From Burkholderiales bacterium (GTDB taxonomy: Bacteria > Pseudomonadota > Gammaproteobacteria > Burkholderiales > Burkholderiaceae_C), in NCBI GenBank assembly GCA_017307855.1, contig JAFKGD010000003.1, positions 248,001 to 312,000 of the forward strand: a stretch of 64,000 bases of DNA, in the 5' to 3' direction. Positions 31,130 to 49,811 of this stretch are shown in pieces (position 1 is the stretch's first letter; each line of letters opens with the position of its first letter). The notes beneath the pieces were generated by a model. It was not told where the DNA came from. It made no database searches and worked only from the letters and a program-made list of their open reading frames with translations. A program made the translations under genes and the position numbers.

Positions 31130-31699
31130 ATGCGATTGCCTGCAGGCCTGTCGCGGCACGGCGCCGCGAGCCTCGTCATCCTGGCGCTGTGGAGCGGTGC
31201 CTGTGCCGCGCAGGGGCCGCGGCCATCCGCGTCTGTGCCGGCGCCGTCCGCCGCGCCGCTGCCTGACTTCAAATTGCGCTCGGGCCTGTGGCGTATCGGC
31301 GTGGCGATCGAGATCACGCCGCGCATCGAAGGCCCCACCACCGGGCCGATCGAGGTCGACCGCTGCCTCAACGCGAAGGACACCTCCAACCTGCTGATGA
31401 CGCCGCCCGGCGCCAGCTGCAGCATCGAGCGGGGCCGCACCACGGCGGAACTGCTGGAATGGAAGGCCGTCTGCCGCCTCAACGGCCAGACCTCCACTGC
31501 CCAGGGGCAGTTGCAGTTCAAGGACACCCGCATCGAAGGCCGCATCGTCACCGAAGCCGCGGGCATGGACATGCGCATCGACACGCGCCTGGCGGGCCGC
31601 TATGTGGGCGCGTGCACGCCGATCCGCGTGCCGCAGCCCGCGACGCCCGCGCCGGCGCCTGGTGCGGCGGCAGGCGGCCTCAAGCGCTACACGCCCTGA
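31130..31699 (+). CDS. Exported DUF3617 family protein
   Basis: A 189-residue protein with a signal peptide (LVILALWSGACAA). The body matches the DUF3617 pattern common in Burkholderiales: LRSGLWRIGVAIEI, a central acidic/Cys stretch (EVDRCLNAKDTS, GASCSIER), WKAVCRLNGQTSTAQGQLQF and RIDTRLAGRYVGAC. Four conserved cysteines suggest periplasmic disulfides. Function is unknown for the family. It begins 12 bp after tadE and may be co-transcribed, but no role in pilus assembly is implied by its sequence. Confidence 0.8.
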   Translation: MRLPAGLSRHGAASLVILALWSGACAAQGPRPSASVPAPSAAPLPDFKLRSGLWRIGVAIEITPRIEGPTTGPIEVDRCLNAKDTSNLLMTPPGASCSIERGRTTAELLEWKAVCRLNGQTSTAQGQLQFKDTRIEGRIVTEAAGMDMRIDTRLAGRYVGACTPIRVPQPATPAPAPGAAAGGLKRYTP

Positions 31700-31715
31700 A
31701 CGCTGGCGGCAGCCG

Positions 31716-31733
31716 CCGTCACATCACTGACAT
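31716..31733 (+). promoter_or_regulatory. Candidate Pho box upstream of phoX
   Basis: CCGTCAC-ATCA-CTGACAT is a 7-4-7 direct repeat one base off the CTGTCA(T/C) consensus in each half. It lies about 70 bp upstream of the phoX ATG and in the same orientation. It would bind PhoB, encoded 16 kb downstream in this window. Confidence 0.6.
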
Positions 31734-31804
31734 CCTGCGGACACACCGGCGTCATCGCCGGACGGGATGCTCTCGTGCATCGAGCAACCACGAGAACATC
31801 CCCG

Positions 31805-33730
31805 ATGAGCAAGGATTTCAGCACCATGGAGGACTCCAATCCGTCCTCCAACCCGAGCATCCATGAAGTGTCCGACCCCTCGCGCCGCCTGTTCGTGCGC
31901 GGTGGCGTGGCCACGGCCGCCGGCGGCCTGTTCGCGGGCCTGGCCGGTTGCGCCAGCCCGGCGTCGAACACAACGGACCTGAGCCGCGCGCCCAAGGGCA
32001 TCGGCTTCAAGGGCGTGGCGATTTCCACCGCCGACAGCATCGTCGTGCCCGAGGGCTACACCGCGCAGGTGATCGCGCCCTGGGGCGATCCGGTCGGCCT
32101 CTCGGGCGAGATGCCGAAGTTCAAGCCCGACGGCACCAACACCGCCGCCGAGCAGGAAGCCCAGATGGGCATGCACCACGACGGCATCCACTACTTCGAG
32201 CTCGACGGCTCCAAGCGCGGCCTGCTGGTGATGAACCACGAATACACCGACGACGGCCTGCTGCACGCGGGCGGCATGGTGCCGTGGACGGCCGAGAAGG
32301 TGCGCAAGGCGCAGGCCGCGCACGGCGTGGCCGTGATCGAAGTGGAAGACCGGGGCGGTGCGTGGCAGGTGGTGCAACCCTCGCCCTGGGCGCGCCGCAT
32401 CACGGCCCGCACGCCGATGACGGTGAGCGGCCCGGCCGCCGGCCACGCCCTGCTGAAGACGGCGGCCGATGCCAGCGGACGCAACGTGCTGGGCACGTTC
32501 AACAACTGCGGCAGCGGCATCACGCCCTGGGGCACCTACCTCACCTGCGAGGAGAACTTCATCAACTACTTCAAGGGTCCGGACACTCCCAGCGCGCACG
32601 AGACGCGCTGGGGCCTGAAGAAGGGCGACCCGAGCGGCTACCGCTGGCACGAGTTCGACGAGCGCTTCGACGCGAGCCGCCATCCCAACGAGCCCAACCG
32701 CCACGGCTGGGTGGTCGAGATCGACCCGATGAACCCCAGCTCCACGCCGATGAAGCGCACGGCGCTCGGCCGTGCCGCGCACGAAGGCGCCACCGTCGCC
32801 GTCACCAAGGACCAGCGCGCCGTGATCTACATGGGCGAGGACGCGCGTTTCGAATACATCTACAAGTTCGTCAGCCGCGATGCGATCAAGCCGGGCGGTG
32901 CCCGCGCCAACGCCACGCTGCTCGACCACGGCACGCTGTACGTGGCCCGCTTCGACGCCAATGGCCAGGGCCAGTGGCTGCCGCTGGTGCACGGCCAGGG
33001 ACCGCTGACGGCGGCCAACGGCTTCGCCGACCAGGGCGAGGTGCTGATCAAGAGCCGCCAGGCCAGCGACCTGCTGGGCGCCACCAAGATGGACCGCCCC
33101 GAGTGGACGGCCGTGGACCAGGCCCGCGGCGAGGTGTATTGCACGCTCACCAACAACAGCAACCGCACGGCCAGCGGCAAGACCGGTGTCGATGCCGCCA
33201 ACCCGCGCGCCAACAACACCATGGGCAACATCATCCGCTGGCGCGAGCAGGGTGACTTCCACGGCGAGCGCTTCGTGTGGAACCACTTCGTGATGGCCGG
33301 CGACCCGACGCTCGCCCGTGCTGATGCCCGGGGCAACGTCAAGGGCGACGCCTTCAGTTGCCCGGACGGCCTGTGGGTGGACGGCCGGGGCATGCTCTGG
33401 ATCCAAACCGACATGTCGACCTCGGCCATGGGCAAGGGTGATCTGGCCAACCTCGGCAACAACGTGATGCTGGCCGCCGACACGCAGACCGGCGAGATCC
33501 GCCGCTTCCTCACCGGCCCGAGCGGCTGCGAGATCACCGGCGTGACCAGCACGCCCGACCTGCGCACGATGTTCGTGAACATCCAGCACCCCGGCGAGAG
33601 CCCGAGCGAGCGCAGCGACCCGGGCAAGCCGCAGGCCATCAGCCAGTGGCCCGGCGGGCCGCAGGGCGGCCGGCCGCGCTCGGCCACCGTCGTCGTCCGG
33701 CGCAAGGACGGCGGCATCGTCGGCACCTGA
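31805..33730 (+). CDS. phoX: PhoX family alkaline phosphatase (DUF839), Tat-exported
   Basis: A 641-residue protein. The N-terminal region has SRRLFVRGGVATAAGGLFAG, a twin-arginine signal followed by a Gly/Ala-rich hydrophobic stretch and LAGCAS. The PhoX core is recognised from LVMNHEYTDDGLLH, NNCGSGITPWGTYLTCEENF, RHGWVVEIDPMNPSSTPMKR, ALGRAAHEGATVAVTK, YIYKFVS and CPDGLWVDGRGMLWIQTDMS. PhoX enzymes release phosphate from organic esters in the periplasm with Ca2+ and Fe3+ cofactors. The start at 31805 is preferred over GTG 31775. A Pho box upstream and the lipid-remodelling genes and ppk downstream fit control by phosphate starvation. Confidence 0.9.
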   Translation: MSKDFSTMEDSNPSSNPSIHEVSDPSRRLFVRGGVATAAGGLFAGLAGCASPASNTTDLSRAPKGIGFKGVAISTADSIVVPEGYTAQVIAPWGDPVGLSGEMPKFKPDGTNTAAEQEAQMGMHHDGIHYFELDGSKRGLLVMNHEYTDDGLLHAGGMVPWTAEKVRKAQAAHGVAVIEVEDRGGAWQVVQPSPWARRITARTPMTVSGPAAGHALLKTAADASGRNVLGTFNNCGSGITPWGTYLTCEENFINYFKGPDTPSAHETRWGLKKGDPSGYRWHEFDERFDASRHPNEPNRHGWVVEIDPMNPSSTPMKRTALGRAAHEGATVAVTKDQRAVIYMGEDARFEYIYKFVSRDAIKPGGARANATLLDHGTLYVARFDANGQGQWLPLVHGQGPLTAANGFADQGEVLIKSRQASDLLGATKMDRPEWTAVDQARGEVYCTLTNNSNRTASGKTGVDAANPRANNTMGNIIRWREQGDFHGERFVWNHFVMAGDPTLARADARGNVKGDAFSCPDGLWVDGRGMLWIQTDMSTSAMGKGDLANLGNNVMLAADTQTGEIRRFLTGPSGCEITGVTSTPDLRTMFVNIQHPGESPSERSDPGKPQAISQWPGGPQGGRPRSATVVVRRKDGGIVGT

Positions 33731-33744
33731 TGCCACCCACCACA

Positions 33745-33768
33745 AGCCCCGCCTGCCGGGGCTTTTTC
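33745..33768 (+). terminator. Rho-independent terminator after phoX
   Basis: A 7-bp stem AGCCCCG / CGGGGCT (33745-33751 and 33757-33763) with a 5-base loop is followed by TTTTT. It lies 15 bp after the phoX stop and only about 50 bp before the OlsB start, so the following operon needs its own promoter or terminator read-through. Confidence 0.85.
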
Positions 33769-33818
33769 GTATCCGGACATTCGAAGACAGACAGATGACA
33801 ACCGACGGAGCACAGACC

Positions 33819-34655
33819 ATGAACGAACTGCCGACGCCGACCTTCCCGCTCTCGCCCTCCATGCTGCCCAGGGGGTCGCTTCATCGCAGCGATGCGCAAC
33901 CTGGCCCGTCGCATGCGGCTGCAGCGGGGGGCATCAGCGTCGCATGGGCCCGCCACCAGGACGAAGTCCGCGAGGCGCAGCGCCTGAGGTTCGATGTCTT
34001 CGCGGGCGAGATGGGCGCACGCCTGACCACGCCGATCGAAGGCCACGACATCGACCTGTTCGACGACTTCTGCGAGCACCTGCTGGTGCGCGATGCGGCC
34101 AGTGGCCAGGTGGTGGGTACCTACCGCGTGCTCACGCCTGCACAGGCGCGCCGTGTGGGCAGCACCTACAGCGATACCGAATTCGACCTCACGCGCCTGC
34201 GTTCGCTGCGCGAGCGCATGGTGGAGCTGGGCCGCAGCTGCGTGCATGCCGAGCACCGCCAGGGCGGCGTGATCCTGGCGCTGTGGGGCGCGCTGGCCGA
34301 GTTCATGGTGCGCAACAAGCTCGACACCATGATCGGTTGCGCCAGCATTCCGATGCTCAGTGGCGGCGTGGTCAGCGGCGACGTGGCGGCCAGCATCTGG
34401 CGCCAGCTGTCGGCCACGCATCTCGCGCCGATCGAGTACCAGGTGCGCCCGCGCCTGCCGCTGCCGGTGGAGCAGCTCGACAGCCACCTGCAGGTGGAGC
34501 CTCCCGCGCTGATCAAGGGTTACCTGCGGCTGGGCGCCAGGGTGCTGGGTGCGCCGGCGTGGGATCCGGACTTCAACACCGCCGACCTGCCCATGCTCAT
34601 GCGCATCGCCGACCTGCCGCCGCGCTACCGCCGCCATTTCCTGGGGGCCGCGTGA
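33819..34655 (+). CDS. olsB: OlsB-like L-ornithine N-alpha-acyltransferase (GNAT superfamily)
   Basis: A protein of 278 residues with the start at ATG 33819, which has CGGAG nine bases upstream; ATG 33795 is an alternative. The core matches OlsB / 'GNAT family N-acyltransferase': VAWARHQDEVREAQRLRFDV, FAGEMGARL, IDLFDDFCEHLLVRDAASGQ, VVGTYRVLTP, VELGRSCVHAEHRQGGVILA, MIGCASIPM and LPPLIKGYLR-like PPALIKGYLRLGARVLGAP. OlsB uses 3-hydroxyacyl-ACP to make lyso-ornithine lipid, a phosphorus-free membrane lipid precursor made under phosphate limitation. OlsA, the second acyltransferase, is not in the window. The stop overlaps the next start by GTGA. Confidence 0.85.
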   Translation: MNELPTPTFPLSPSMLPRGSLHRSDAQPGPSHAAAAGGISVAWARHQDEVREAQRLRFDVFAGEMGARLTTPIEGHDIDLFDDFCEHLLVRDAASGQVVGTYRVLTPAQARRVGSTYSDTEFDLTRLRSLRERMVELGRSCVHAEHRQGGVILALWGALAEFMVRNKLDTMIGCASIPMLSGGVVSGDVAASIWRQLSATHLAPIEYQVRPRLPLPVEQLDSHLQVEPPALIKGYLRLGARVLGAPAWDPDFNTADLPMLMRIADLPPRYRRHFLGAA

Positions 34656-35536
34656 AGGGCCTCGAAAGCGTGCTGGCGGCGGCGCGCGCGGCGGCCGTGC
34701 CGGCGGGCGACGACCTGTCGTCCACCCGCGCGCGCTGGCGCACCGTGTTCATCTCCGACCTGCACCTGGGCACGCCCGGCTGCCAGGCCGAGGCGCTGCT
34801 CGACTTCCTCAAGGCCAATCCGAGCGAGCAACTGTTCCTGGTCGGCGACATCGTCGACGGCTGGCAACTGCGCCGCCGCTGGTACTGGCCGCAGGCCCAC
34901 AACGACGTGGTGCAAAAGCTCCTGCGCGCCGCGCGCAAGGGCTGCCGCGTGGTGTTCGTGCCGGGCAACCACGACGAGTTCGCGCGCGCCTTCACCGGCA
35001 ACGCCTTCGGCGGCATCGAGGTGCTCGAAGAAGCGGTGCACATGACGGCCGACGGCCGGCGCCTGTGGGTCATTCACGGCGATCATTTCGATGGCGTGAT
35101 CCAGTGCGCCAAGTGGCTGGCCTACCTGGGCGACAACCTCTACGAATTCACGCTGCGCCTGAACCGCCACCTCAACACGCTGCGCGCGCGGCTGGGCCTG
35201 CCGTACTGGTCGCTGTCGGCCTACCTCAAGGGCCGGGTCAAGACGGCGCTCAACTACGTCACCGACTTCGAGGTGGCCGTGGCCGCCGAGGCCCGGCGGC
35301 GCGGCCACCAGGGCGTGGTCTGCGGCCACATCCACCGCGCCGAGATGCGCGAGATCGATGGCACGCTCTACTGCAACGACGGCGACTGGGTCGAGAGCAT
35401 GACCGCCCTGGTGGAGGACTTCCAGGGCCGCCTGTCCATCGTGCAGTGGCAGCCGCCGCCGCGCGCGGGTGGGCATCGGCAGCCCGACAGGGCCCAGGGC
35501 GTGCGTGCCGGGCGCCTGGAGGAGATGGCTGCATGA
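34652..35536 (+). CDS. plcP: PlcP-like metallophosphoesterase (phospholipase C type)
   Basis: A 294-residue calcineurin-like phosphoesterase often labelled UDP-2,3-diacylglucosamine diphosphatase. Metal-binding motifs are in order: FISDLHLGTPG (~residues 33-43), VGDIVDGWQLRRRWYWPQAH (~64-83), VPGNHDEFARAF (~104-115), VIHGDHFDGV (~141-150) and CGHIHRAEMRE (~225-235). The YWPQAHNDVVQKLLR and 'GGIEVLEEAVHMTADG' segments match PlcP, the Pho-regulated enzyme that in rhizobia and marine bacteria removes phospholipid head groups to leave diacylglycerol. It is wedged between OlsB-like and glycosyltransferase genes with 4-bp overlaps at both ends, which favours PlcP over LpxH. The start is GTG 34652. 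Confidence 0.82.
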   Translation: MKGLESVLAAARAAAVPAGDDLSSTRARWRTVFISDLHLGTPGCQAEALLDFLKANPSEQLFLVGDIVDGWQLRRRWYWPQAHNDVVQKLLRAARKGCRVVFVPGNHDEFARAFTGNAFGGIEVLEEAVHMTADGRRLWVIHGDHFDGVIQCAKWLAYLGDNLYEFTLRLNRHLNTLRARLGLPYWSLSAYLKGRVKTALNYVTDFEVAVAAEARRRGHQGVVCGHIHRAEMREIDGTLYCNDGDWVESMTALVEDFQGRLSIVQWQPPPRAGGHRQPDRAQGVRAGRLEEMAA

Positions 35537-36627
35537 AGCTCGCGCTGGTGACGGACGCCTGGACGCCGCAGGTCAACGGCGTGGTGACCACGCTGGTGGA
35601 GCTGGTGCGCGAGCTGCGGGAGCTCGGGCACGAGGTGCTGGTGGTCGAGCCCGGCCAGTTCCGCACGCGCCCCTGCCCGGGCTACGCCGGCATCGACCTG
35701 GCCGTGCGCCCGGGCCGCGAGGTCACGCGCCGGCTCGACGACTTCGAGCCCGATGCGATCCACGTCGCCACCGAGGGACCGCTGGGCTGGGCCGCGCGCC
35801 GCCACTGTCTGCGCCGCCAGTTGCGCTTCACCACCGCGTTCCACACCAAGTTTCCCGACATCCTCAACGCCGCGCTGCGCGTGCCGCTGTCGTGGGGCTA
35901 CGCGCTGTTCCGCCGTTTCCACCGGCCGTCGTCGGGCGTGATGGTGCCCACCGAAGGCGTGCTGCGCATGCTGCAGCAGCGCGGATTCCGCAACCTGCGC
36001 GCCTGGACGCACGGCGTGGACACGCGCCTCTTCGCCTTCGAGCCCGAGGTCCGATTGCACCCGCTGCTGGGCACGCTCGCGCGCCCTGTGCTGCTGTTCG
36101 TGGGCCGGGTCTCGTACGAGAAGAACATCGAGGCCTTCCTCTCGATGCCCTTTCCCGGCACCAAGGTGGTGTGCGGCGTGGGTCCGCTGCTCGACCGGCT
36201 GCGCGAGAGCCATCCCGACGTGCGCTGGCTCGGCGTGATGCCGCGCGACGAACTGGCGCGCGTGTACGCGGCGGCCGACGTGTTCGCGTTTCCGAGCCGC
36301 TCCGAGACGTTCGGCCTGGTGATGCTGGAAGCCATGGCGGCCGGCACGCCGGTAGCGGCTTATCCGGTGGACGGCCCGCTGCAGGTGCTGGGTGCACGGG
36401 ACGACGGACAGGGCGCGCAGGGCGGCGTGCTGCACCATGACTTGCACACCGCGTGCTGGGGTGCGCTGGCGGTGCCGCGCCACGAAGCGCGCGGGCGCGC
36501 CATGGCGTTCGCCTGGTCGGAGGCTACGCGTTTGTTCCTGTCATACCTCGTGCCGGTGCGTGATAGGGTGTCATTCGCGGGTCATGAAGGTTCCGTGACT
36601 GTCACATCCCTGTCATCCGGCGCGTGA
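35533..36627 (+). CDS. agt: Agt-like family 4 glycosyltransferase, probably making glycolipids
   Basis: A 364-residue GT-B glycosyltransferase. The N-terminal motif VTDAWTPQVNGVVTTL and HVATEGPLGWAAR are typical of GT4 enzymes that glycosylate membrane lipids (SQD2/MgtA/Agt type). The donor-binding domain has LLFVGRVSYEKNIEAFL (~190), GVGPLLDRLRESHPDV and FPSRSETFGLVMLEAMAAGT with the EX7E motif. Position after a PlcP-like gene, with an ATGA overlap, suggests that it adds a sugar to the diacylglycerol that PlcP releases. Whether it makes glucosyl, galactosyl or glucuronosyl lipid is open, and a mannosyltransferase role cannot be excluded. The last codons contain a Pho box. Confidence 0.8.
   Translation: MKLALVTDAWTPQVNGVVTTLVELVRELRELGHEVLVVEPGQFRTRPCPGYAGIDLAVRPGREVTRRLDDFEPDAIHVATEGPLGWAARRHCLRRQLRFTTAFHTKFPDILNAALRVPLSWGYALFRRFHRPSSGVMVPTEGVLRMLQQRGFRNLRAWTHGVDTRLFAFEPEVRLHPLLGTLARPVLLFVGRVSYEKNIEAFLSMPFPGTKVVCGVGPLLDRLRESHPDVRWLGVMPRDELARVYAAADVFAFPSRSETFGLVMLEAMAAGTPVAAYPVDGPLQVLGARDDGQGAQGGVLHHDLHTACWGALAVPRHEARGRAMAFAWSEATRLFLSYLVPVRDRVSFAGHEGSVTVTSLSSGA
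36538..36585 (+). promoter_or_regulatory. Additional PhoB half-site-like repeats inside agt, upstream of ppk
   Basis: CTGTCAT at 36538-36544 is a perfect half-site with no partner 11 bp on. GTGTCAT-TCGC-GGGTCAT at 36568-36585 has the 7-4-7 spacing with degenerate halves. It begins 31 bp (about three helical turns) before the perfect box at 36599, so several PhoB dimers could stack on one face. Confidence 0.45.
36599..36616 (+). promoter_or_regulatory. Perfect Pho box in front of ppk, within the agt 3' end
   Basis: CTGTCAC-ATCC-CTGTCAT is an exact 7-4-7 match to the Pho box consensus. It overlaps the last codons of agt and lies about 62 bp upstream of the ATG I prefer for ppk (36678). It argues for a separate PhoB-activated ppk promoter in addition to read-through from the olsB-plcP-agt operon. 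Confidence 0.8.
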
Positions 36628-36677
36628 ACACTGGCGGCCAGGCAGGCAGCGGGTGCCCGCCGGTGTCTCGCGAAACC

Positions 36678-38828
36678 ATGCAGCCCCTGATAGAACGACC
36701 ACCCTCCGCCGAGACGGCAGTGCCCGCGCGGGCCGCAACGGACGGCCCGCCGCTGGTCCTGCTCGACCGCGACCACAGCATCCTGGCCTTCAACGAGCGC
36801 GTGTTCGACGTGGCCTGCCGGCCGGACGTTCCGCTGCTCGAACGCCTGCGCTACCTGTGCATCGTCTCGTCCAACCTGGACGAGTTCTTCGAGGTGCGTG
36901 TCGCACCGCACCTGAAGGCGGCGCAGGTCGATGACCACAAGGGCCTCTACACGGCCGGGAGCTGGGCCGCGCTGTCCGAGGCCGCCCACAAGCTCGTCGC
37001 GCGGCAGTACGCGCTCTACAACGACGAACTCATGCCGGCCTTCCACGCGCAGGGCATCCGCATCGTGTCGCACGGCGAGCGCAACGAGGCGCAGCGGCGC
37101 TGGGTACGACAGCACTTCGAGCGCGACGTGCGTCCGCTGCTGGTGCCGGTGGGGCTGGATCCGGCCCACCCGTTCCCGCAGGTGGCCAACAAGTCGCTCA
37201 ACTTCATCGTGCGCCTGTCGGGCCAGGACGCGTTCGGCCGCGAGAACGAGATCGCCATCGTGAAAGTGCCGCGCGTGCTGCCCCGGTTCGTGCGCATGCC
37301 GGACAAGCTGGCGCGCGGCGGCGTCGCGTTCGTCTCGCTCTCCAGCGTGATCCGTGCCCACCTGTCCGATCTGTTCCCCGGGCGCGAGGTGGGCGAGTTC
37401 TCGCAGTTCCGCGTCACGCGAAACTCCGACCTCGAAGTCGACGAGGACGACGTCAAGAACCTGCGCATGGCGCTGCGCCAGGGCCTGCAGCAGCGCCACT
37501 ACGGGCAGGCGGTGCGGCTGGAAGTCTCGGCCGGTTGTTCCGATCACCTCGCGCATTTCCTGCTGCGCCAGTTCGACCTGCCGGAATCCGCGCTCTACCG
37601 CGTGCACGGTCCGGTGAACCTGGTGCGGCTCACGCAACTCATCGATCTGATCGATGCGCCTCAACTGCTGTTTCCGCCCTGGAAGCCCGCGCCGTGCGCG
37701 GCCTTCGCCAGCGGCGGCTCGGTGTTCGACCGGCTACGCCAGGGCGACGTGCTGATCCATCAGCCGTACGAGAGTTTCGACGCCGTGCTCACCTTCCTGC
37801 GCGAGGCGGTGAACGATCCGAACGTGCTGGCCATCCGCCAGACCATCTACCGCACGGGTGCCGACTCGGAGCTGATGGATCTGCTGCGCGAAGCCGTGCG
37901 CCGCGGCAAGGAAGTGATGGTGGTGGTGGAGTTGAAGGCGCGGTTCGACGAAGAGGCCAACATCAACTGGGCCGAGAAGCTCGAATCCATCGGCGCGCAG
38001 GTGGTGTACGGCGTGGTGGGTCTCAAGACGCACGCCAAGATGCTGCTGGTGACGCGGCGCGAAGGCACGCGGCTGCGCCGCTACGCACATCTCTCCACCG
38101 GCAACTACAACCTGCGCACGGCGCGCCTGTACACCGACATCGGCCACTTCACGGCCGATGCCGCGCTGACGGCCGACGTCGAGCAGGTGTTCGTGCACCT
38201 GGCCAGCCAGAGCCGCCTGCCGCGCATGAACCGGCTGTGGGTGGCGCCGTTCCAGCTGCACAAGCGGCTCATCGCGCGCATCGACGCGCTGGCCATGGCC
38301 GCCGCGGCCGGCCGCGACGCCCGCGTGATCGCCAAGATGAACGCGCTGACCGACGAGGCGCTGATTCATGCATTGGTGCGCGCGGGCCAGGCGGGGGTGC
38401 GCATCAACCTGATCGTGCGCGGCGCGTGCATGCTGCCAGCGGGCGTGCCCGGCGTCACCGACAACATCCGCGTGCGGTCGCTGATCGGGCGCTTTCTGGA
38501 GCACACGCGCGCGTTCTACTTCCGCGACGGCGAGGAAGAAGAGCTGCTGCTCTCCAGCGCCGACTGGATGAACCGCAACATGCTGCGCCGTGTCGAGCTG
38601 GCCTGGCCCGTGACCGACCCGGCGCTGCGCCGCCGCGTCATCGACGAATGCCTCGTCTCGGGCCTCTACGACGGCCAGGACGCCTGGGACCTGGGGCCCG
38701 ACGGACAGTACCGCCGCGTGAGCGGCAGCGCCTATCCCGGCGCGCAGGCGGCCCTCATGCAGCGCCACGCGCAGCCGCTGGTCGCCAGGCCCAACGCCAC
38801 TTCACCGGGAGCATCGACATGGACCTGA
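36678..38828 (+). CDS. ppk: Polyphosphate kinase 1
   Basis: A 716-residue PPK1 that polymerises the ATP gamma-phosphate into inorganic polyphosphate. The N domain opens LLDRDHSILAFNERVFDVAC and RLRYLCIVSSNLDEFFEVRV, followed by HPFPQVANKSLNFIV. The catalytic PLD-like region has NDPNVLAIRQTIYRTGADSE, VVVELKARFDEEANINWAEK, GVVGLKTHAKMLLVTRR (His ~452, in the motif of the autophosphorylated His) and RRYAHLSTGNYNLRTARLYT (His ~471). A GTG at 36624 overlapping the agt stop would also be in frame. Because the Pho box ends at 36616, a transcript from that promoter would begin near or after that GTG, so ATG 36678 is preferred. sixA overlaps the end. Confidence 0.95.
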   Translation: MQPLIERPPSAETAVPARAATDGPPLVLLDRDHSILAFNERVFDVACRPDVPLLERLRYLCIVSSNLDEFFEVRVAPHLKAAQVDDHKGLYTAGSWAALSEAAHKLVARQYALYNDELMPAFHAQGIRIVSHGERNEAQRRWVRQHFERDVRPLLVPVGLDPAHPFPQVANKSLNFIVRLSGQDAFGRENEIAIVKVPRVLPRFVRMPDKLARGGVAFVSLSSVIRAHLSDLFPGREVGEFSQFRVTRNSDLEVDEDDVKNLRMALRQGLQQRHYGQAVRLEVSAGCSDHLAHFLLRQFDLPESALYRVHGPVNLVRLTQLIDLIDAPQLLFPPWKPAPCAAFASGGSVFDRLRQGDVLIHQPYESFDAVLTFLREAVNDPNVLAIRQTIYRTGADSELMDLLREAVRRGKEVMVVVELKARFDEEANINWAEKLESIGAQVVYGVVGLKTHAKMLLVTRREGTRLRRYAHLSTGNYNLRTARLYTDIGHFTADAALTADVEQVFVHLASQSRLPRMNRLWVAPFQLHKRLIARIDALAMAAAAGRDARVIAKMNALTDEALIHALVRAGQAGVRINLIVRGACMLPAGVPGVTDNIRVRSLIGRFLEHTRAFYFRDGEEEELLLSSADWMNRNMLRRVELAWPVTDPALRRRVIDECLVSGLYDGQDAWDLGPDGQYRRVSGSAYPGAQAALMQRHAQPLVARPNATSPGASTWT

Positions 38829-39280
38829 TCTTCTGGCGTCACGCCGAAGCCGAGGAATGGGTGGAAGGCTGCAACGACATGGAACGTTCGCTCACCCCGC
38901 GCGGCGAGAAGCAGGCGGCGCGCATGTCGCAGTGGCTCGACCGCCAGTTGCCCGATGGCGTGCGCATCGTCTGCAGCCCGGCGCGCCGGACCGAGCAGAC
39001 CGTGCTGGCGCTGGGCCGCAAGTACAAGCTGCGCAGCGAACTGTCACCCGACGGCACGCCCGACCAGTTGCTCGAACTCGTGCAATGGCCGACCAGCCGT
39101 CAGACCTTCCTGGTCGTGGGCCACCAGCCGCTCCTGGGCCAAACCATCGCGCGCCTGGCCGGGCTGCAGGACGAGGAGTGCGCCGTGCGCAAGGGCGGCG
39201 TCTGGTGGCTGCGCCATCGCGAGCGCCATGGCGTCGGGCAAACCGTCGTCGTGACGGTGCAGTCGCCCGAGATGCTGTGA
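38819..39280 (+). CDS. sixA: Phosphohistidine phosphatase SixA
   Basis: A 153-residue member of the histidine phosphatase superfamily. The N-terminal MDLIFWRHAEAE holds the catalytic RHA triad member, followed by LTPRGEKQAARMSQWL, VRIVCSPARRTEQTVLAL and, near residue ~100, FLVVGHQPLLGQTIARL with the second catalytic His. SixA removes phosphate from phosphohistidine on signalling proteins such as PtsO/ArcB HPt domains. The start overlaps ppk by 10 bp, so it is co-transcribed with Ppk, whose intermediate is also a phosphohistidine; a functional link is only suggestive. Confidence 0.9.
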   Translation: MDLIFWRHAEAEEWVEGCNDMERSLTPRGEKQAARMSQWLDRQLPDGVRIVCSPARRTEQTVLALGRKYKLRSELSPDGTPDQLLELVQWPTSRQTFLVVGHQPLLGQTIARLAGLQDEECAVRKGGVWWLRHRERHGVGQTVVVTVQSPEML

Positions 39281-39302
39281 CGCGTGCCCGGCGGCGCTGC
39301 CG

Positions 39303-39863
39303 TCAGGCCTTGCCGGGGCGGCCGGTCTTCAGCGCCGGCACCTGGCCCAGCGCGGCGAGCAGCGCCGCATCGGTGAGGCCCGACAGCAGCTTGATGCCGG
39401 CGCGCAGCACTTCGCTCTTCTTGGCCGGTTGACCCAGCCTGGCCGAACGGGCCTTGAGATCGTCGATCACCGCGTATTCGGTCTTGGGAATGGTGAAGCT
39501 GTCGCGCACCAGCTTGGGCTTGCGCGCCTTGGCTTCGCGCGTGGCCTTCTCGGCCCCAGCCTTGGCCGGCGTGGCGGCTTGCGTGGCAGCCTTGCTGACG
39601 GCGGACTTGGCGGGGCTGGTCTTCACGGGTGCGGTCTTCACGGGCGCCGCCTTCGCCGGAGCGGAGGATTTCGCCGCCTTGGCCGCAGACTTCTTTGCCG
39701 CAGCCTTCTTCACGGCCTTCGCAGGGGCCGCCTTGACTGCCGGTTGCGCGGGCGCGGTGGCCGTGGGCGCCACCGGCGCAAAGGCCTCGGCCAGCGAGCG
39801 GCCGGCGGGTGCCGGCGCATTGGCGATCGAGGGGCGGGGAGTGGTCTTGCGTGCAGTTGCCAT
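39303..39863 (-). CDS. Histone H1-like Ala/Lys/Pro-rich protein with a conserved C-terminal domain
   Basis: A 186-residue protein. Residues ~1-115 are a low-complexity basic tail rich in Ala, Lys, Pro and Thr, with units such as KAAPAKAVKKAAAKKSAAKA and APVKTAPVKTSPAKSA, like eukaryotic H1 or bacterial H1-like DNA-compacting proteins. Residues ~118-186 form a distinct domain: KLVRDSFTIPKTEYAVIDDL, KARSARLGQPAKKSEVLRAG, IKLLSGLTDAALLAALGQVP. Its TIPKTEYAVIDDLK...KKSEVLRAGI pattern recalls a ribbon-helix-helix type DNA-binding fold, which is my inference. A near-perfect operator-like palindrome lies in front of it. It is downstream of ppx on the same strand. Confidence 0.75.
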   Translation of the reverse strand: MATARKTTPRPSIANAPAPAGRSLAEAFAPVAPTATAPAQPAVKAAPAKAVKKAAAKKSAAKAAKSSAPAKAAPVKTAPVKTSPAKSAVSKAATQAATPAKAGAEKATREAKARKPKLVRDSFTIPKTEYAVIDDLKARSARLGQPAKKSEVLRAGIKLLSGLTDAALLAALGQVPALKTGRPGKA

Positions 39864-42751: not shown

Positions 42752-43089
42752 CGGGAAAGGCGACCTGCGGTTGGAGGAAAGTGCGCTGGCGAACGTCCGG
42801 CGGCACCGGACGGCGATGGCGCCAATCTAGGAAAACTCCATGACATCCCTGCGGCAAGCCGGTCATGTGCCGTTTCCTGTGGCGCGGGTGCGACGAGGGG
42901 TGTCACGAGGATTTCATTGCCCGCCGTCATCCTGCCCTCGCACCGTGCGACACGAGGCTGCGGCTTTGCGAAAGCCTCGCGCGGTGAGCGTCAGGTGTCA
43001 GCTGCGTGACGACTGCGTGGCTGTCACGAGGTCGTCACAAACACTGCCTACATTGCCCTGATCGAGCTCTTCCAACCCAGAGGTAACAG
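42752..43089. promoter_or_regulatory. 338-bp gap between the orphan binding protein and pstS
   Basis: The gap holds no ORF worth calling. It carries the pst promoter with its Pho box (43021-43038) and a weaker 7-4-7 element GTGTCAC-GAGG-ATTTCAT at 42900-42917. The left third (42752-42840) must contain the promoter of the divergent gene, for which no consensus was found. Confidence 0.6.
43021..43054 (+). promoter_or_regulatory. pstS promoter: Pho box plus -10
   Basis: CTGTCAC-GAGG-TCGTCAC (43021-43038) is a near-consensus Pho box. Exactly 10 bp downstream is TACATT (43049-43054), a plausible -10 with the spacing known for PhoB-activated promoters, in which the box replaces the -35. The start of transcription would be near 43061, leaving a ~30-base leader with AGAGGTA before the pstS ATG. 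Confidence 0.8.
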
Positions 43090-44127
43090 ATGAAATTCCA
43101 CTCCAAGCTTGCCGCCATCGGCGTGGCGACCACCGTCCTGATGGCCCAGGCCGCCCTGGCGCAAGACGTGACGGGCGCTGGCGCGTCCTTCCCCGCGCCC
43201 GTGTACGCCAAGTGGGCCGATGCCTACAACAAGGCCACCGGCGCCAAGGTGAACTACCAGTCCGTCGGCTCGGGCGCCGGCATCAAGCAGATCCAGGCCA
43301 AGACCGTGGACTTCGGCGCTTCGGACGCGCCCCTGTCGGACGAACAACTGGCCAAGGACGGCCTGATCCAGTTCCCCACCGTGATCGGTGGCGTGGTGCC
43401 GGTGGTCAACGTCAAGGGCATCGCCCCCGGCCAATTGAAGCTGACCGGCGCCGTGCTGGCCGACATCTACCTGGGCAAGATCGCCAAGTGGAACGAGCCG
43501 GCCATCGCTTCGCTCAACCCCGGCGTCACGCTGCCGGACGCACCCATCGCCGTGGTGCGCCGCGCCGACGGTTCGGGCACCACCTTCGCCTTCACCGAAT
43601 ACCTGACCAAGGTCAGCCCCGCCTGGAAGGCCGAAGTCGGCACGGGCACCGCCGTCAAGTGGCCCACCGGCGCGGGTGGCAAGGGCAACGAAGGCGTGTC
43701 GGCCTTCGTGATGCGCCTGCCGGATTCGATCGGCTACGTCGAGTACGCCTACGCCAAGCAGAACAAGATGTCCCACGTCGCGCTGCAGAACGCCGACGGC
43801 GCCTACGTGCAGCCCGACGACGAGACGTTCAAGGCGGCCGCGGCCGGCATCGACTGGTCCAAGTCGTTCGCCCAGAGCCTGACCAACGCCAGCGGCAAGA
43901 CCGCATGGCCCATCTCGACGGCCACCTTCATCCTGGTCTACACCAAGCCGGACAACCCCGCCAAGACCGCTGCCGCCCTGAAGTTCTTCGACTGGGCCTA
44001 CACCAACGGCGACAAGGCCGCCGCCGATCTGGACTACGTGCCGTTCCCGGCCAACGTGAAGAGCGCCATCCGCACGTCCTGGGGCAAGGTGATGGGTGCC
44101 GACGGTCGCCCCGTCGCCTACAAGTAA
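43090..44127 (+). CDS. pstS: Phosphate ABC transporter, periplasmic binding protein PstS
   Basis: A 345-residue periplasmic protein with a signal peptide ending AQAALA-Q near residue 24. The phosphate-binding loops are visible: GAGASFPAPVYAKWADAYNK (~29-48), YQSVGSGAGIKQIQAKTVDF, GASDAPLSDEQL and VRRADGSGTTFAFTEYL. PVAYK ends the protein. It captures phosphate for the PstCAB permease and is expected to be the most abundant product of the operon under starvation. A Pho box with a -10 is directly upstream. Confidence 0.96.
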   Translation: MKFHSKLAAIGVATTVLMAQAALAQDVTGAGASFPAPVYAKWADAYNKATGAKVNYQSVGSGAGIKQIQAKTVDFGASDAPLSDEQLAKDGLIQFPTVIGGVVPVVNVKGIAPGQLKLTGAVLADIYLGKIAKWNEPAIASLNPGVTLPDAPIAVVRRADGSGTTFAFTEYLTKVSPAWKAEVGTGTAVKWPTGAGGKGNEGVSAFVMRLPDSIGYVEYAYAKQNKMSHVALQNADGAYVQPDDETFKAAAAGIDWSKSFAQSLTNASGKTAWPISTATFILVYTKPDNPAKTAAALKFFDWAYTNGDKAAADLDYVPFPANVKSAIRTSWGKVMGADGRPVAYK

Positions 44128-44178
44128 GCCCCTTCCACCGACGCAGGACCGCCCGTGTCTTCCGCCTTTCCCGCAGAA

Positions 44179-44212
44179 CCGATGCCGGCGGGCCTGTCCC
44201 GCCCGGCATCGG
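44179..44212 (+). promoter_or_regulatory. Strong hairpin between pstS and pstC
   Basis: CCGATGCCGGCGGG (44179-44192) pairs with CCCGCCCGGCATCGG (44198-44212) around a 5-base loop, with one bulged C, giving a 14-bp stem. There is no T tail. Such structures after a binding-protein gene usually protect its mRNA 3' end and lower permease expression. It implies that pstC starts at ATG 44227 rather than GTG 44155. Confidence 0.7.
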
Positions 44213-44226
44213 ACGACAGAACCAGA

Positions 44227-45192
44227 ATGAAAACTCCTCCTCCTGCGCGGACGCCTCGTACCGGCCCGCTCGCAGACCGGCTGTTCGGCTGGGCGGCCAA
44301 GGGCGCGGCGCTGCTGACGCTGGCGCTGCTGATCGGCATCCTGCTGTCGCTGATCGCCGGGGCCTGGCCGGCCATTGCCAAGTACGGGCTGGGCTTCCTC
44401 ACCAACGCCGAATGGGATCCCGTGCAGGAGGAATTCGGCGGCCTGGTGATGATCTACGGCACCTTGGCCACATCGGCCATCGCGCTGCTCATCGCGGTGC
44501 CGATCAGCTTCGGCATCGCCCTGTTCCTGACCGAACTCTCCCCCAGCTGGCTCAAGCGCCCGCTGGGCACGGCCATCGAACTGCTGGCCGCGGTGCCCTC
44601 CATCGTCTACGGCATGTGGGGCCTGCTGGTGTTCGGCCCCATCCTCGCCACCTACGTTCAACGGCCGCTGCAGCAACTGCTGGATGGCGTGCCCTTCCTC
44701 GGGGCCTTCGTGTCCGGCCCGCCGGTGGGCATCGGCATCCTGTCGGCCGGGATCATCCTGGCCATCATGATCATTCCGTTCATCGCCTCGGTGATGCGTG
44801 ACGTGTTCGAAGTCACGCCGCCGCTGCTCAAGGAGTCGGCCTACGGCCTGGGCTCGACCACCTGGGAGGTGGTCTCCAAGGTCGTGCTGCCCTACACCAA
44901 GGCCGGCGTCGTCGGCGGCATCATGCTCGGCCTGGGCCGGGCGCTGGGCGAGACGATGGCCGTCACCTTCGTGATCGGCAACATGAACCAGTTGTCGTCG
45001 CTCTCGCTGTTCGAGGCTGCCAACAGCATCACGTCCGCGCTGGCCAACGAATTCGCCGAAGCCGGCACCGGCATGCACCAGGCGGCGCTGATGTACCTGG
45101 GCCTGGTGCTGTTCTTCATCACCTTCGTCGTGCTGTCGCTGTCCAAGATCCTGCTGGCGCAGATGCGCAAGAGCGAAGGGACCAAATCATGA
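44227..45192 (+). CDS. pstC: Phosphate ABC transporter permease PstC
   Basis: A 321-residue inner-membrane permease. Six membrane segments are visible, starting [20 protein letters not shown], then [20 protein letters not shown]. The cytoplasmic EAA-type loop is [20 protein letters not shown] with [20 protein letters not shown] and GETMAV. The PstC-specific [16 protein letters not shown] is clear. I chose ATG 44227; an upstream GTG (44155) would put a hairpin in the coding region and add unlike residues. The stop overlaps pstA by ATGA. Confidence 0.95.
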
Positions 45193-46079
45193 ACGCCGGC
45201 ACCGGACAACAACTCATCGCTTCGGCCGATCTGGCGCGCCTGCGCCAGGCCAAGTACGCCCGCCGCAAGACGGTGAACCAGATCGCGCTGGCGCTGTCGC
45301 TGGCGGCCATGGCCTTCGGCGTGTTCTGGCTGGTGTGGATCCTCTGGGAAACGCTGCGCCTGGGCCTGGCCGGCCTGTCATGGGCGGCCTTCAGCCAGAT
45401 GACGCCGCCGCCCAACGAAGTGGGCGGCATCGCCAACGCCATCTACGGCTCGTTCCTGATGGTGATGCTGGCCACCTTCGTGGGCACGCCCATCGGCATC
45501 ATGGCCGGCATCTACCTGGCCGAGTACAACCCCCGGGGCTGGCTTGCCTCGGTGACGCGCTTCGTCAACGACATCCTGCTGTCGGCACCCTCGATCGTGA
45601 TCGGCCTGTTCGTCTACGCCGTGATCGTGGCGCGCTTCAAGAGCTTCTCGGGCTGGGCCGGCGCGATGGCGCTGGCGCTGATCGTGATCCCGGTGGTCAT
45701 CCGTACCACCGAGAACATGCTGCAACTGGTGCCGCCGGGCCTGCGCGAGGCGGCCTATGCGCTGGGCACGCCCAAGTGGAAGGTGATCATGTCCATCACC
45801 CTGCGGGCGGCGCGTGCCGGCGTGGTGACGGGCATCCTGCTGGCCGTGGCACGCATCTCGGGCGAGACCGCTCCGCTGTTGTTCACCGCGCTGTCCAACC
45901 AGTTCTGGACGTCGAACCTGTCCGAGCCGATGGCCAGCCTGCCGGTGACCATCTTCAAGTTCGCGATGAGCCCGTACGAGAACTGGCAGCAACTGGCTTG
46001 GGCCGGCGTGTTCCTGATCACGCTCGCCGTCCTCGCGCTGAACATTCTGGCCCGGGTGCTGACCCGCGCCAGACACTGA
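45189..46079 (+). CDS. pstA: Phosphate ABC transporter permease PstA
   Basis: A 296-residue inner-membrane permease, the partner of PstC. The N-terminus carries [20 protein letters not shown], then membrane segments. [58 protein letters not shown], then the EAA loop [20 protein letters not shown] and [27 protein letters not shown] match PstA. The start overlaps the stop of pstC. pstB follows after 31 bp. Confidence 0.95.
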
Positions 46080-46110
46080 ACGACAACGAACAACGCAAGG
46101 GCCACACGCC

Positions 46111-46899
46111 ATGCAAACCGCTACCGCCACTACTGTCGTGAACTCGCCGTCCAAGATTTCGGTCAAGGACCTGAACTTCTACTACGGCAAATTCCACGCT
46201 CTCAAGGGCATCAATCTCGAGATTCCCGAGAAGAAGGTCACCGCCTTCATCGGCCCCTCGGGCTGCGGCAAGTCCACGCTGCTGCGCACCTTCAACCGCA
46301 TGTTCGAGCTCTACCCCGAGCAACGCGCCGAAGGCGCGATCGTGCTCGACGGCGAGAACCTGCTGACCAGCAAACAGGACGTCGCGCTGGTGCGCGCCAA
46401 GGTCGGCATGGTGTTCCAGAAGCCCACGCCGTTCCCGATGTCGATCTACGACAACATCGCTTTCGGCGTGAAGCTGTTCGAGAACCTCTCGCGTTCCGAC
46501 ATGGACGACCGCGTGGAGTGGGCGCTGAAGAAGGCCGCGCTGTGGAACGAGGTCAAGGACAAGCTCCAGCAGAGCGGCTCGGGCCTCTCGGGCGGCCAGC
46601 AGCAGCGCCTGTGCATCGCCCGCGGCATCGCGATCAAGCCCGAAGTGCTGCTGCTCGACGAGCCGTGCTCGGCGCTCGATCCGATCTCGACCGCGAAGAT
46701 CGAGGAGCTGATCGCCGAACTCAAGAGCGACTACACCGTGGTGATCGTGACCCACAACATGCAGCAGGCCGCGCGTTGCAGCGACTACACGGCCTATATG
46801 TACCTGGGCGATCTGGTGGAGTTCGGGGCGACGGAACAGATGTTCTTCAAGCCCCAGCGCAAAGAGACGGAAGACTACATCACTGGAAGATTCGGCTGA
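46111..46899 (+). CDS. pstB: Phosphate ABC transporter ATP-binding protein PstB
   Basis: A 262-residue ABC ATPase that drives phosphate import. Motifs: [20 protein letters not shown], Walker [10 protein letters not shown] (~residues 48-56), [20 protein letters not shown] (Q loop), signature [20 protein letters not shown], Walker [14 protein letters not shown] and H-loop [33 protein letters not shown] and [10 protein letters not shown] at the C-terminus are PstB-specific. It also takes part, with PhoU, in signalling phosphate status to PhoR. Confidence 0.97.
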
Positions 46900-46907
46900 T
46901 CCCCGAA

Positions 46908-46974
46908 GCGACCTGCGGTCGCCTCCCCCACGGGGGCAACACCAGCGGCCCGGCAGAGCCGTTTCCGCGGTGTT
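46908..46974 (+). repeat. Palindromic intergenic element between pstB and phoU
   Basis: Three hairpins stand in a row: GCGACC-TGC-GGTCGC (46908-46922), CCCCC-AC-GGGGG (46925-46936), and a branched one in which AACACC pairs with GGTGTT and GCGG with CCGC around a small CGGC-AGA-GCCG stem (46938-46974). The overall form resembles repeated palindromic elements I recall from Comamonadaceae intergenic regions. It sits where operon mRNA may be processed. A strong Shine-Dalgarno, TTAGGAGGTTTCC, follows for phoU. Confidence 0.65.
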
Positions 46975-47005
46975 CTCGGTCAAGTCAATCAATTAGGAGG
47001 TTTCC

Positions 47006-47707
47006 ATGCCTGATAAACATCTTTCCACCCAGTTCGACAGCGAACTCAATGGCGTGTCCTCGCGCGTCATGGAGCTCGGCGGTCTGGTCGAGTCCCAGAT
47101 CGGCCTGGCGGTCTACGCCCTGCAGAACCTGGCCAGCGACGCGGCCGATCAGGTCACCGAGATCGAGCATCGCGTGAACGCGATGGAGATCGAGATCGAC
47201 CGCGAGCTTTCATCCATCATCGCCCGCCGCCAGCCGACGGCACGCGACCTGCGACTGTTGATCGCCATCAGCAAGACCACGGCCAACCTCGAGCGCGTGG
47301 GCGACGAGGCCAACAAGATCGCGCGCATGGTCAAGTCCATCATCGAATCGGGCGCACCGCGCGCGCTGCCGTCTTCGGACCTGCGCGTGGCGGCCGACCT
47401 GGCCTCCGGCCTGATCCGTCGTGCGCTCGATGCGTTCGCGCGCCTGGACACCGCAGCCGCCGTCTCGATCCTCAAGGAGGACGACGCCATCGACCGCGAG
47501 TTCGACGGCTTCGTGCGCAAGCTCATCACCTACATGATGGAAGACCCGCGCACCATCGGCGCCAGCCTGGACCTGCTGTTCCTGGCCAAGGCCATCGAGC
47601 GCATCGGCGACCACGCCAAAAACATTGCAGAATTCATCATCTACATCGTCAAGGGCGCCGACGTGCGCCACACCTCGATGCAGGAGATCGAGTCCGCGGT
47701 CCAGTAA
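47006..47707 (+). CDS. phoU: Phosphate signalling protein PhoU
   Basis: A 233-residue helical protein made of two three-helix bundles. The start MPDKHLSTQFDSELNGVSSR is typical. Each bundle has the ExxxD metal-binding pattern: IEHRVNAMEIEIDRELSSII with ISKTTANLERVGDEANKIAR in the first, and EDDAIDREFDGFVRKLITYM with LLFLAKAIERIGDHAKNIAE in the second. PhoU links the Pst transporter to PhoR and represses the Pho regulon when phosphate is plentiful. phoB follows after 3 bp. Confidence 0.96.
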   Translation: MPDKHLSTQFDSELNGVSSRVMELGGLVESQIGLAVYALQNLASDAADQVTEIEHRVNAMEIEIDRELSSIIARRQPTARDLRLLIAISKTTANLERVGDEANKIARMVKSIIESGAPRALPSSDLRVAADLASGLIRRALDAFARLDTAAAVSILKEDDAIDREFDGFVRKLITYMMEDPRTIGASLDLLFLAKAIERIGDHAKNIAEFIIYIVKGADVRHTSMQEIESAVQ

Positions 47708-47710
47708 AGA

Positions 47711-48406
47711 ATGAAACGTCATCCCCGAGTCCTCATCGTCGAAGACGAGTCCGCGATCGCCGAGCTGATCGCCGTCAATCTGCGCCACAACGGCTTCGAG
47801 CCGATCTGGTCGGAGGATGGCGAGTCGGCGCAACGCGAACTCGATGCCGTGCTGCCCGACGTCATCCTGCTGGACTGGATGCTGCCGGGCCAGAGCGGTG
47901 TGCAGCTGGCGCGCAAGTGGCGCGGCGACGCGCGTACCCGGGGTATCCCGATCCTGATGCTCACCGCACGTGGCGACGAGCCCGACAAGATCGCGGGCCT
48001 GGACGCCGGGGCAGATGACTACATCACCAAGCCGTTCTCCACGCAGGAAATGCTCGCGCGCATCCGCGCCGTGCTGCGCCGCCGCGCGCCCGAGCAGGTG
48101 ATCGACAGCGTGAGCATCGGCCCGCTGGTGCTCGACGGCGCCACGCACCGAGTGACCTGGAACGGCCAGCAGCTCAAGGTGGGCCCCACCGAGTTCAAGT
48201 TGCTCAACTACCTCATGAAGCATGCCGAGCGCGTGCACAGCCGCAGCCAGCTGCTCGACAAGGTGTGGGGCGACCATGTCTTCATCGAGGAGCGCACGGT
48301 GGACGTGCACGTCAAGCGCCTGCGCGAGGCGCTGGGCGAAGGCGCGCCGATGGTCGAAACCGTGCGCGGCGCGGGTTACCGCCTCACGGCGCAGCCGCAG
48401 TCCTGA
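47711..48406 (+). CDS. phoB: Phosphate regulon response regulator PhoB
   Basis: A 231-residue OmpR-family regulator. The receiver domain has ILIVEDESAIAEL, the phospho-acceptor Asp55 in VILLDWMLPGQSG, the switch Thr in PILMLTARGDE and the Lys in YITKPFSTQEMLARI. The C-terminal winged helix has VGPTEFKLLNYLMKHAERVH, SRSQLLDKVWGDHVFIEERT and VDVHVKRLREALGEG. It binds Pho boxes; those seen before phoX, ppk and pstS are its likely targets in this window. It is followed by phoR. Confidence 0.96.
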   Translation: MKRHPRVLIVEDESAIAELIAVNLRHNGFEPIWSEDGESAQRELDAVLPDVILLDWMLPGQSGVQLARKWRGDARTRGIPILMLTARGDEPDKIAGLDAGADDYITKPFSTQEMLARIRAVLRRRAPEQVIDSVSIGPLVLDGATHRVTWNGQQLKVGPTEFKLLNYLMKHAERVHSRSQLLDKVWGDHVFIEERTVDVHVKRLREALGEGAPMVETVRGAGYRLTAQPQS

Positions 48407-48455
48407 ACGGTTCTTCGCAGGGGCGGCGTGACGTCGCCGCACCGATAATCTGCCG

Positions 48456-49811
<1,356 letters not shown>

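Follow-up and report, generated by a model that had tools for sequence, protein, structure and literature searches.

A conserved olsB-plcP-agt cluster in Comamonadaceae, predicted to replace membrane phospholipids during phosphate starvation

The window analysed here, a 64,000-nucleotide stretch of contig JAFKGD010000003.1 (positions 248,001 to 312,000) in assembly GCA_017307855.1 of a Burkholderiales bacterium, contains three overlapping genes, olsB, plcP and agt, and raises the question of whether they form a single phosphate-regulated unit for exchanging phospholipids for phosphorus-free lipids. The genes overlap by 4 bp at each junction (GTGA between olsB and plcP, ATGA between plcP and agt), and encode an OlsB-like N-acyltransferase, a PlcP-like phosphoesterase and a glycosyltransferase family 4 (GT4) enzyme of the Agt type. 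On present evidence it is highly likely that olsB-plcP-agt is a PhoB-controlled operon for membrane-lipid replacement, with the two lipid routes set out below as its predicted outputs. The module is real, conserved and very probably part of the phosphate response; ornithine lipid and the release of diacylglycerol are well predicted, and the glycolipid less surely.

Under phosphate starvation, PlcP would cut the phosphoalcohol head group off membrane phospholipids, giving diacylglycerol and allowing the phosphate to be recovered, and Agt would add one sugar, glucose or a related one, to the diacylglycerol. OlsB would N-acylate ornithine with a 3-hydroxyacyl group, and an OlsA encoded elsewhere in the genome, on contig 16, would attach the second chain to form ornithine lipid. 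Catalysis, substrates and co-transcription are all predicted from the genomic data in this scheme. An earlier note, made from the letters of the window, had proposed such a module with two phosphorus-free routes, and it was right in essence: the overlaps that it described were confirmed from open reading frame coordinates, its neighbouring phoX, ppk and pst-phoBR genes were confirmed by family models (Table 1), its three enzyme assignments survived trees, family models and identity comparisons, and the gene order and a distant OlsA are supported as well, with the function predicted.

Conservation and precedents of the gene cluster

Gene order was compared in 150 genomes of the family, for which matches were used as listed and an Agt was counted as close at E up to 1e-60, and in 120 genomes of the order. 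Dropped from the order set were five weak OlsB matches (the second match of G110 and those of G111, G022, G047 and G014), PlcP matches weaker than 1e-70, Agt matches under about 47% identity, second or partial Agt copies, the OlsA of genomes without OlsB, and second OlsA copies in G073, G108 and G115. A further scan, of named loci, was limited to the 80 best among 583 relatives that were confirmed, and their gene content was determined by tblastn at 1e-20.

Across the family set, OlsB was present in 126 genomes, PlcP in 111 and a close Agt in 54. OlsB and PlcP occurred together in 106 genomes and lay within 1 kb of each other in 44 of these, all but one of them (43) in the order OlsB then PlcP, and the complete trio of OlsB, PlcP and Agt was found in 32 genomes, the window included. 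Since homologous pairs or trios recur in dozens of genomes, the three are real genes and not chance open reading frames. The named loci, from Acidovorax, Polaromonas, Hydrogenophaga, Ramlibacter, Rhodoferax, Curvibacter, Ottowia, Limnohabitans and unnamed Comamonadaceae or Burkholderiales, had the arrangement OlsB-PlcP-Agt-PPK in 45/80 cases and PhoX-OlsB-PlcP-Agt-PPK in 5/80, while 22/80 were cut by contig ends or different. The PlcP reading frame was open across the olsB stop in 64/72 relatives. A survey of this kind in Burkholderiales had been proposed in the earlier note, and the order was found to be kept; the olsB-plcP-agt module is common in Comamonadaceae and not peculiar to the window genome. 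Two counts speak against a strict unit, namely that OlsB and PlcP were not within 1 kb of each other in 62/106 family genomes, some of them perhaps split by contig ends, and that 8/80 named loci had OlsB-PlcP-PPK without Agt.

The association of olsB with plcP or agt also recurs outside the family, including in another order. Other genomes of the order set showed OlsB, PlcP and Agt in the same succession as in the window (G006), OlsB with a 750-bp gap to PlcP (G068), PlcP then Agt then OlsB (G105 and two genomes of one genus, G030 and G074), PlcP close to OlsB on the opposite strand (G019), and OlsB directly followed by Agt (G048, C1:2531335-2533171) with PlcP on the same contig but 1.7 Mb distant. 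In 48/83 order genomes OlsB and an OlsA-like gene were no more than 1 kb apart. These counts and alternative orders suggest that olsB switched partners within Comamonadaceae, and that its association with plcP and agt either had more than one origin or was later reshuffled.

None of the enzyme types is new by itself, and the module is a new combination of known parts. PlcP and Agt make monoglucosyldiacylglycerol (MGDG) and glucuronic acid diacylglycerol (GADG) in Pseudomonas aeruginosa (PMC8528852), GADG formation in Methylosinus trichosporium OB3b depends on plcP-agt (PMC9239053), and pairs making MGDG and GADG are also reported in PMC4796936. The same adjacency of plcP with a GT4 agt is found in the window, and the P. 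aeruginosa pair, taken from its gene order to be PA3219-PA3218 of PMC8528852, is 55% and 45% identical to the window PlcP and Agt and shares the 4-bp overlap. A Pho box is reported before that operon (PMC8528852). The window differs from these plcP-agt operons in having olsB in front and ppk1 behind with a Pho box inside agt, and in an Agt with Glu in place of the catalytic Asp. The OlsBA route is likewise established (PMC4686642, PMC7814305, PMC3972451), as is the distinction between OlsB and GlsB (PMC6298996). The window shares with the pathway of Sinorhizobium meliloti, Streptomyces coelicolor and Burkholderia the OlsB family, judged by sequence, and an OlsA-clade protein; the two genes form a putative operon in S. 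coelicolor (PMC4686642), whereas in the window genome they are unlinked and olsB adjoins plcP-agt. Agrobacterium has the same enzyme set under PhoB control, with olsA atu0355, olsB atu0344, plcP atu1649 and agt atu2297 (PMC3972451), none of them adjacent by locus number, whereas three lie in one overlapping cluster in the window. PlcP and OlsAB are also PHO-dependent in Pseudomonas putida (PMC5082522).

One regulated cluster would link two routes whose genes, by the locus numbers in the excerpts of PMC3972451 and PMC5082522, are non-adjacent in Agrobacterium and P. putida. No account of olsB joined to plcP-agt, nor any description of these lipid-replacement genes in Comamonadaceae, was found in the literature searched, which largely excluded subscription journals, and the excerpts of PMC10667739 and PMC6182550, which concern lipids of related communities or genera, gave no treatment of the genes. 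Many freshwater and soil Comamonadaceae are predicted to save phosphorus by a membrane lipid swap, and the cluster offers a natural test of the balance between aminolipid and glycolipid synthesis.

Pho boxes and transcription

Loose Pho-box matches (up to 3 mismatches) numbered 14 in the whole window against 14.1 expected, so that strict sites and the comparison across relatives alone carry weight. Five strict sites (at least 12/14) were present, compared with a simulated mean of 0.67 per strand; beyond those in Table 1, the fifth is a minus-strand match at 63.1 kb. The comparison used 71 loci, 70 named and the window, with a box counted at 11/14 or better in the 150 bases before olsB. A plus-strand box was found there in 35/71 loci and a minus-strand box in 5/71, against 0/73 and 0/81 on the plus strand and 0/73 and 1/81 on the minus strand of coding controls, 1/80 before plcP, 1/66 before agt and 17/1420 in shuffles. 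The loci are related, and Fisher values therefore overstate the significance of these differences. The seven loci with phoX directly 5' of olsB, the window among them, had no plus-strand box before olsB, and all seven had a box of 11-13/14 in the 250 bases before phoX, a score of 11 being reached in 16/400 random stretches of 250 bases taken from the loci.

Within the window itself, two features are less easily reconciled with a PhoB-controlled operon: the 150 bases before olsB lack a plus-strand Pho box, and the gap that separates olsB from phoX contains a terminator-like hairpin. The terminator scan returned two such sites in 8 kb against 2.9 in shuffles, which is not significant by the scan alone. 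A similar hairpin was seen in 5/6 phoX-olsB relatives, with folds read by eye, or 6/7 loci counting the window. Because of the missing box and the hairpin, a single olsB-plcP-agt transcript in the window genome is something that we infer. A scan of 31500-39500 for sigma-70-type promoters returned no sites. The likely source of olsB expression would be the phoX Pho promoter, with partial read-through of the hairpin, or else an unrecognised promoter immediately 5' of olsB, near 33784-33801. The inverted Pho-box-like site at the latter position stands where many relatives have a direct box.

The missing box and the hairpin would also fit a reading in which the genes are neighbours merely by descent within a large Pho island, with olsB expressed separately and constitutively, as would the family genomes in which OlsB and PlcP are apart. 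That reading is improbable given the 4-bp overlaps, the PlcP frame that remains open across the olsB stop in most relatives, the recurrence of the association in other families and another order, and the Pho boxes that relatives have before olsB.

A second candidate regulatory site marks the other end of the cluster. A box of at least 12/14 was found at the agt end in 46/54 loci with Agt and PPK, beginning inside agt in 39/54 and at exactly the same place in 26/54, a score that random 250-base stretches reach in 8/400. In the window the box is perfect and sits 28 bases before the end of agt. Within 150 bases 5' of the start inferred for ppk1 a box was found in 24/63 loci, the search of the agt end and the stretch beyond it giving the clearer count. 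The box inside agt most likely serves ppk1. The ppk1 reading frame also opens with GTG at 36624, overlapping agt, and the ATG at 36678 is probably the true start because the Pho box lies at 36599. The box occupies the last agt codons, which means that a probable ppk1 promoter fixes part of the C-terminal sequence of Agt.

Acyltransferases, glycosyltransferase and phosphoesterase

OlsB is the sole match to PF13444 in the genome (Acetyltransf_5, 119.5 bits). In a 26-row tree it fell inside a 22-row clade (support 96/99) comprising 12 olsA-adjacent OlsBs of the order, a Methylomagnum OlsB beside an acyltransferase gene, a second Variovorax protein, an unannotated Streptomyces homologue and six plcP-adjacent relatives, and the plcP-adjacent group that includes the window was supported at 100/99; the deeper branching of this tree is less reliable because of long branches. 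Its identity was 52-58% to the olsA-adjacent proteins of the order, 49% to the Streptomyces homologue and 33% to the S. meliloti protein. Scores against the curated models NF052554 and NF052555 (156.8 and 146.9 bits) were below the cut-offs of 350 and 320 and count against the assignment; the model names, RHOCB and BRUA, suggest that these were made for other lineages.

The low model scores, the 33% identity to the S. meliloti protein and the lack of an adjacent olsA in the window would also fit an enzyme that made another aminolipid, such as a GlsB-like glutamine lipid, or an N-acyl amino acid in place of lyso-ornithine lipid. This is unlikely for an enzyme nested among the olsA-adjacent OlsBs and the Streptomyces homologue, and 6/80 named loci have an OlsA-like gene no more than about 1 kb from the operon OlsB. 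A GlsB identity was specifically disfavoured by the tree, in which a GlsB-type Pseudorhodobacter protein, recognised by its bamE neighbour, lay far outside the OlsB clade, though on a very long branch. In three named loci (L077, L100 and L127) the OlsA-like gene is just 5' of olsB in the same orientation; two of them, L077 and L100, additionally have agt after plcP, giving the full two-route set at one site. Further OlsB-type genes occur elsewhere: one on Variovorax replicon L151 (4935-5777, 53% identity) is followed by a transporter-like reading frame, and seven family genomes (G120, G160, G194, G211, G219, G235 and G264) have an extra OlsB-like N-acyltransferase, 35-40% identical.

The earlier note had pointed out that OlsA is absent from the window and that a distant one would be needed, and a candidate was found on contig 16. 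Four PF01553 acyltransferases are encoded in the genome, and one of them, P0002, has two OlsA models as its best matches and lies in one clade with olsB-adjacent OlsAs (96/93), apart from the PlsC of Escherichia coli and a PlsC-like protein that the genome also encodes; the idea that PlsC is the only second acyltransferase was dropped, since this OlsA-clade protein exists. The gene beside P0002 appears dihydroorotase-like by eye, with weak Pfam matches to amidohydrolases (34 and 30 bits). An OlsA-like protein was found in 83/83 order genomes with a strong OlsB match and in 125/126 family genomes with OlsB, and the 8/120 order genomes without OlsA were all without OlsB too. The case for ornithine lipid is reduced by the scores of P0002 against NF052553 and NF052552 (142 and 122 bits, under the cut-off of 300) and by the presence of an OlsA-like protein in 20/24 family genomes without OlsB, from which it follows that the presence of OlsA is not specific and is weakened as proof of ornithine lipid, and that P0002 probably has a further role.

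Agt matches Glyco_transf_4 (78 bits) and Glycos_transf_1 (70 bits), shares 45% identity with P. aeruginosa Agt1 (346 aligned columns) and 47% with a Sphingomonas protein linked to PlcP, and keeps the donor motifs GRVSYEKN and FPSRSETFG. The positions of the catalytic dyad are His104 and Glu258, the His being present in 64/64 aligned sequences. The position equivalent to Asp256 of GTcp, a characterised diacylglycerol glycosyltransferase, is the weak point of the glycolipid prediction, with Glu in the window and, across the 64 sequences, 52 Glu, 11 Asp and 1 Ala, and the exchange of this Asp for Glu costs GTcp more than 90% of its activity (PMC8231724). Because MshA, also a GT4 enzyme, has Glu at the same position (PMC8231724), the window Agt need not be inactive, and its sugar or acceptor cannot be assumed. 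Comamonadaceae Agts mostly have Glu here, with Asp kept in some, including Ramlibacter L115 and L133 and Ottowia L110 and L126.

Should the exchange mark another role, on another lipid or a surface polysaccharide, Agt would not act on diacylglycerol; besides the prevalence of Glu, no NCBIfam model reaches its cut-off for Agt, and 12 family genomes with OlsB beside PlcP have no close Agt adjoining, G215 among them at a contig end. Such a role is doubtful in view of the 45-47% identity to Agts linked with PlcP, one of which, P. aeruginosa Agt1, shares the 4-bp overlap with plcP, the Glu of MshA, and the position of plcP immediately 5' of agt in 29/30 linked order genomes. Still less probable is a change of specificity by which the Comamonadaceae Agt came to glycosylate the aminolipid or use another sugar as the operon partner of OlsB, in which case the operon would make an undescribed lipid class and not two independent known lipids.

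The phosphoesterase is best assigned as PlcP. Five metal motifs characterise PlcP (DxH, GD, GNHD, H and GHxH), and all of them, as the earlier note had claimed, were found by eye in the translation as SDLHL, GDIVDGW, GNHD, HGDHFD and GHIH; matches to Metallophos_2 and Metallophos scored 51 and 46 bits. The protein shares 50.9% identity with an S. meliloti protein encoded a few kb from genes annotated as an acyl-homoserine-lactone synthase and a LuxR-type regulator, which we take to be the characterised PlcP SMc00171, and 55.1% with a P. aeruginosa protein whose gene is followed, with a 4-bp overlap, by a glycosyltransferase gene, both being judged characterised PlcPs by their gene neighbours and not by locus tags. 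In a 19-row tree, four LpxH rows were split at 100/100 from 15 PlcP-type rows that include the window, which thus groups with the Sinorhizobium and Pseudomonas PlcPs, and the motif GNHD was present in 86/86 PlcP-type sequences against GNRD in 3/3 LpxH. A grouping with LpxH, which the earlier note had named as a result that would count against its proposal, was thus not obtained. Against the LpxH model the window protein reached 50.6 bits, short of the cut-off of 134, whereas a separate LpxH encoded on another contig of the same genome scored 254 bits.

That the phosphoesterase is a divergent LpxH of lipid A synthesis, in a cluster unrelated to phosphate starvation, is suggested by its top NCBIfam model, by the name that public records give to this protein type (both UDP-2,3-diacylglucosamine diphosphatase) and by its closest solved structures, which are LpxH, and is ruled out for practical purposes by the model score, the GNHD motif, the tree split and the neighbouring phoX, agt and ppk1. 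The LpxH annotation is misleading and hides PlcP in public genomes.

Neighbouring genes and feature coordinates

Table 1. Genes and candidate regulatory sites of the olsB-plcP-agt locus, in window coordinates
Feature	Position	Strand	Basis or remark
olsB	ATG 33819 to TGA 34655	+	other possible start ATG 33795
plcP, putative metallophosphoesterase-fold intracellular phospholipase C	34652..35536, GTG start	+	identities, tree, motif
agt, GT4 glycosyltransferase, probably acting on diacylglycerol	35533..36627, ATG start	+	identity, donor motifs
phoX alkaline phosphatase, directly 5' of olsB	31805..33730	+	PF05787, 582 bits
ppk1 polyphosphate kinase	36678..38828 (reading frame opens at GTG 36624)	+	family models
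pstSCAB-phoU-phoB-phoR	43090..49811	+	
Pho box 5' of phoX	31716..31744	+	18-mer 31716-31733 at 12/14, then weaker repeat
Terminator-like hairpin with T run, phoX-olsB gap	33744..33764	+	terminator scan and folds
Pho-box-like inverted site 5' of olsB	33784..33801	-	12/14
Perfect Pho box inside agt 3' end, probably for ppk1	36599..36616	+	14/14
Pho box 5' of pstS	43021..43038	+	12/14

Beyond ppk1 lie a histidine-phosphatase gene of sixA-like type, ppx on the opposite strand and then the pstSCAB-phoU-phoBR genes, which start 6.5 kb past agt. Between ppx and pstS there is a lone periplasmic-binding-protein gene (PF13458) on the minus strand at 41573-42751.

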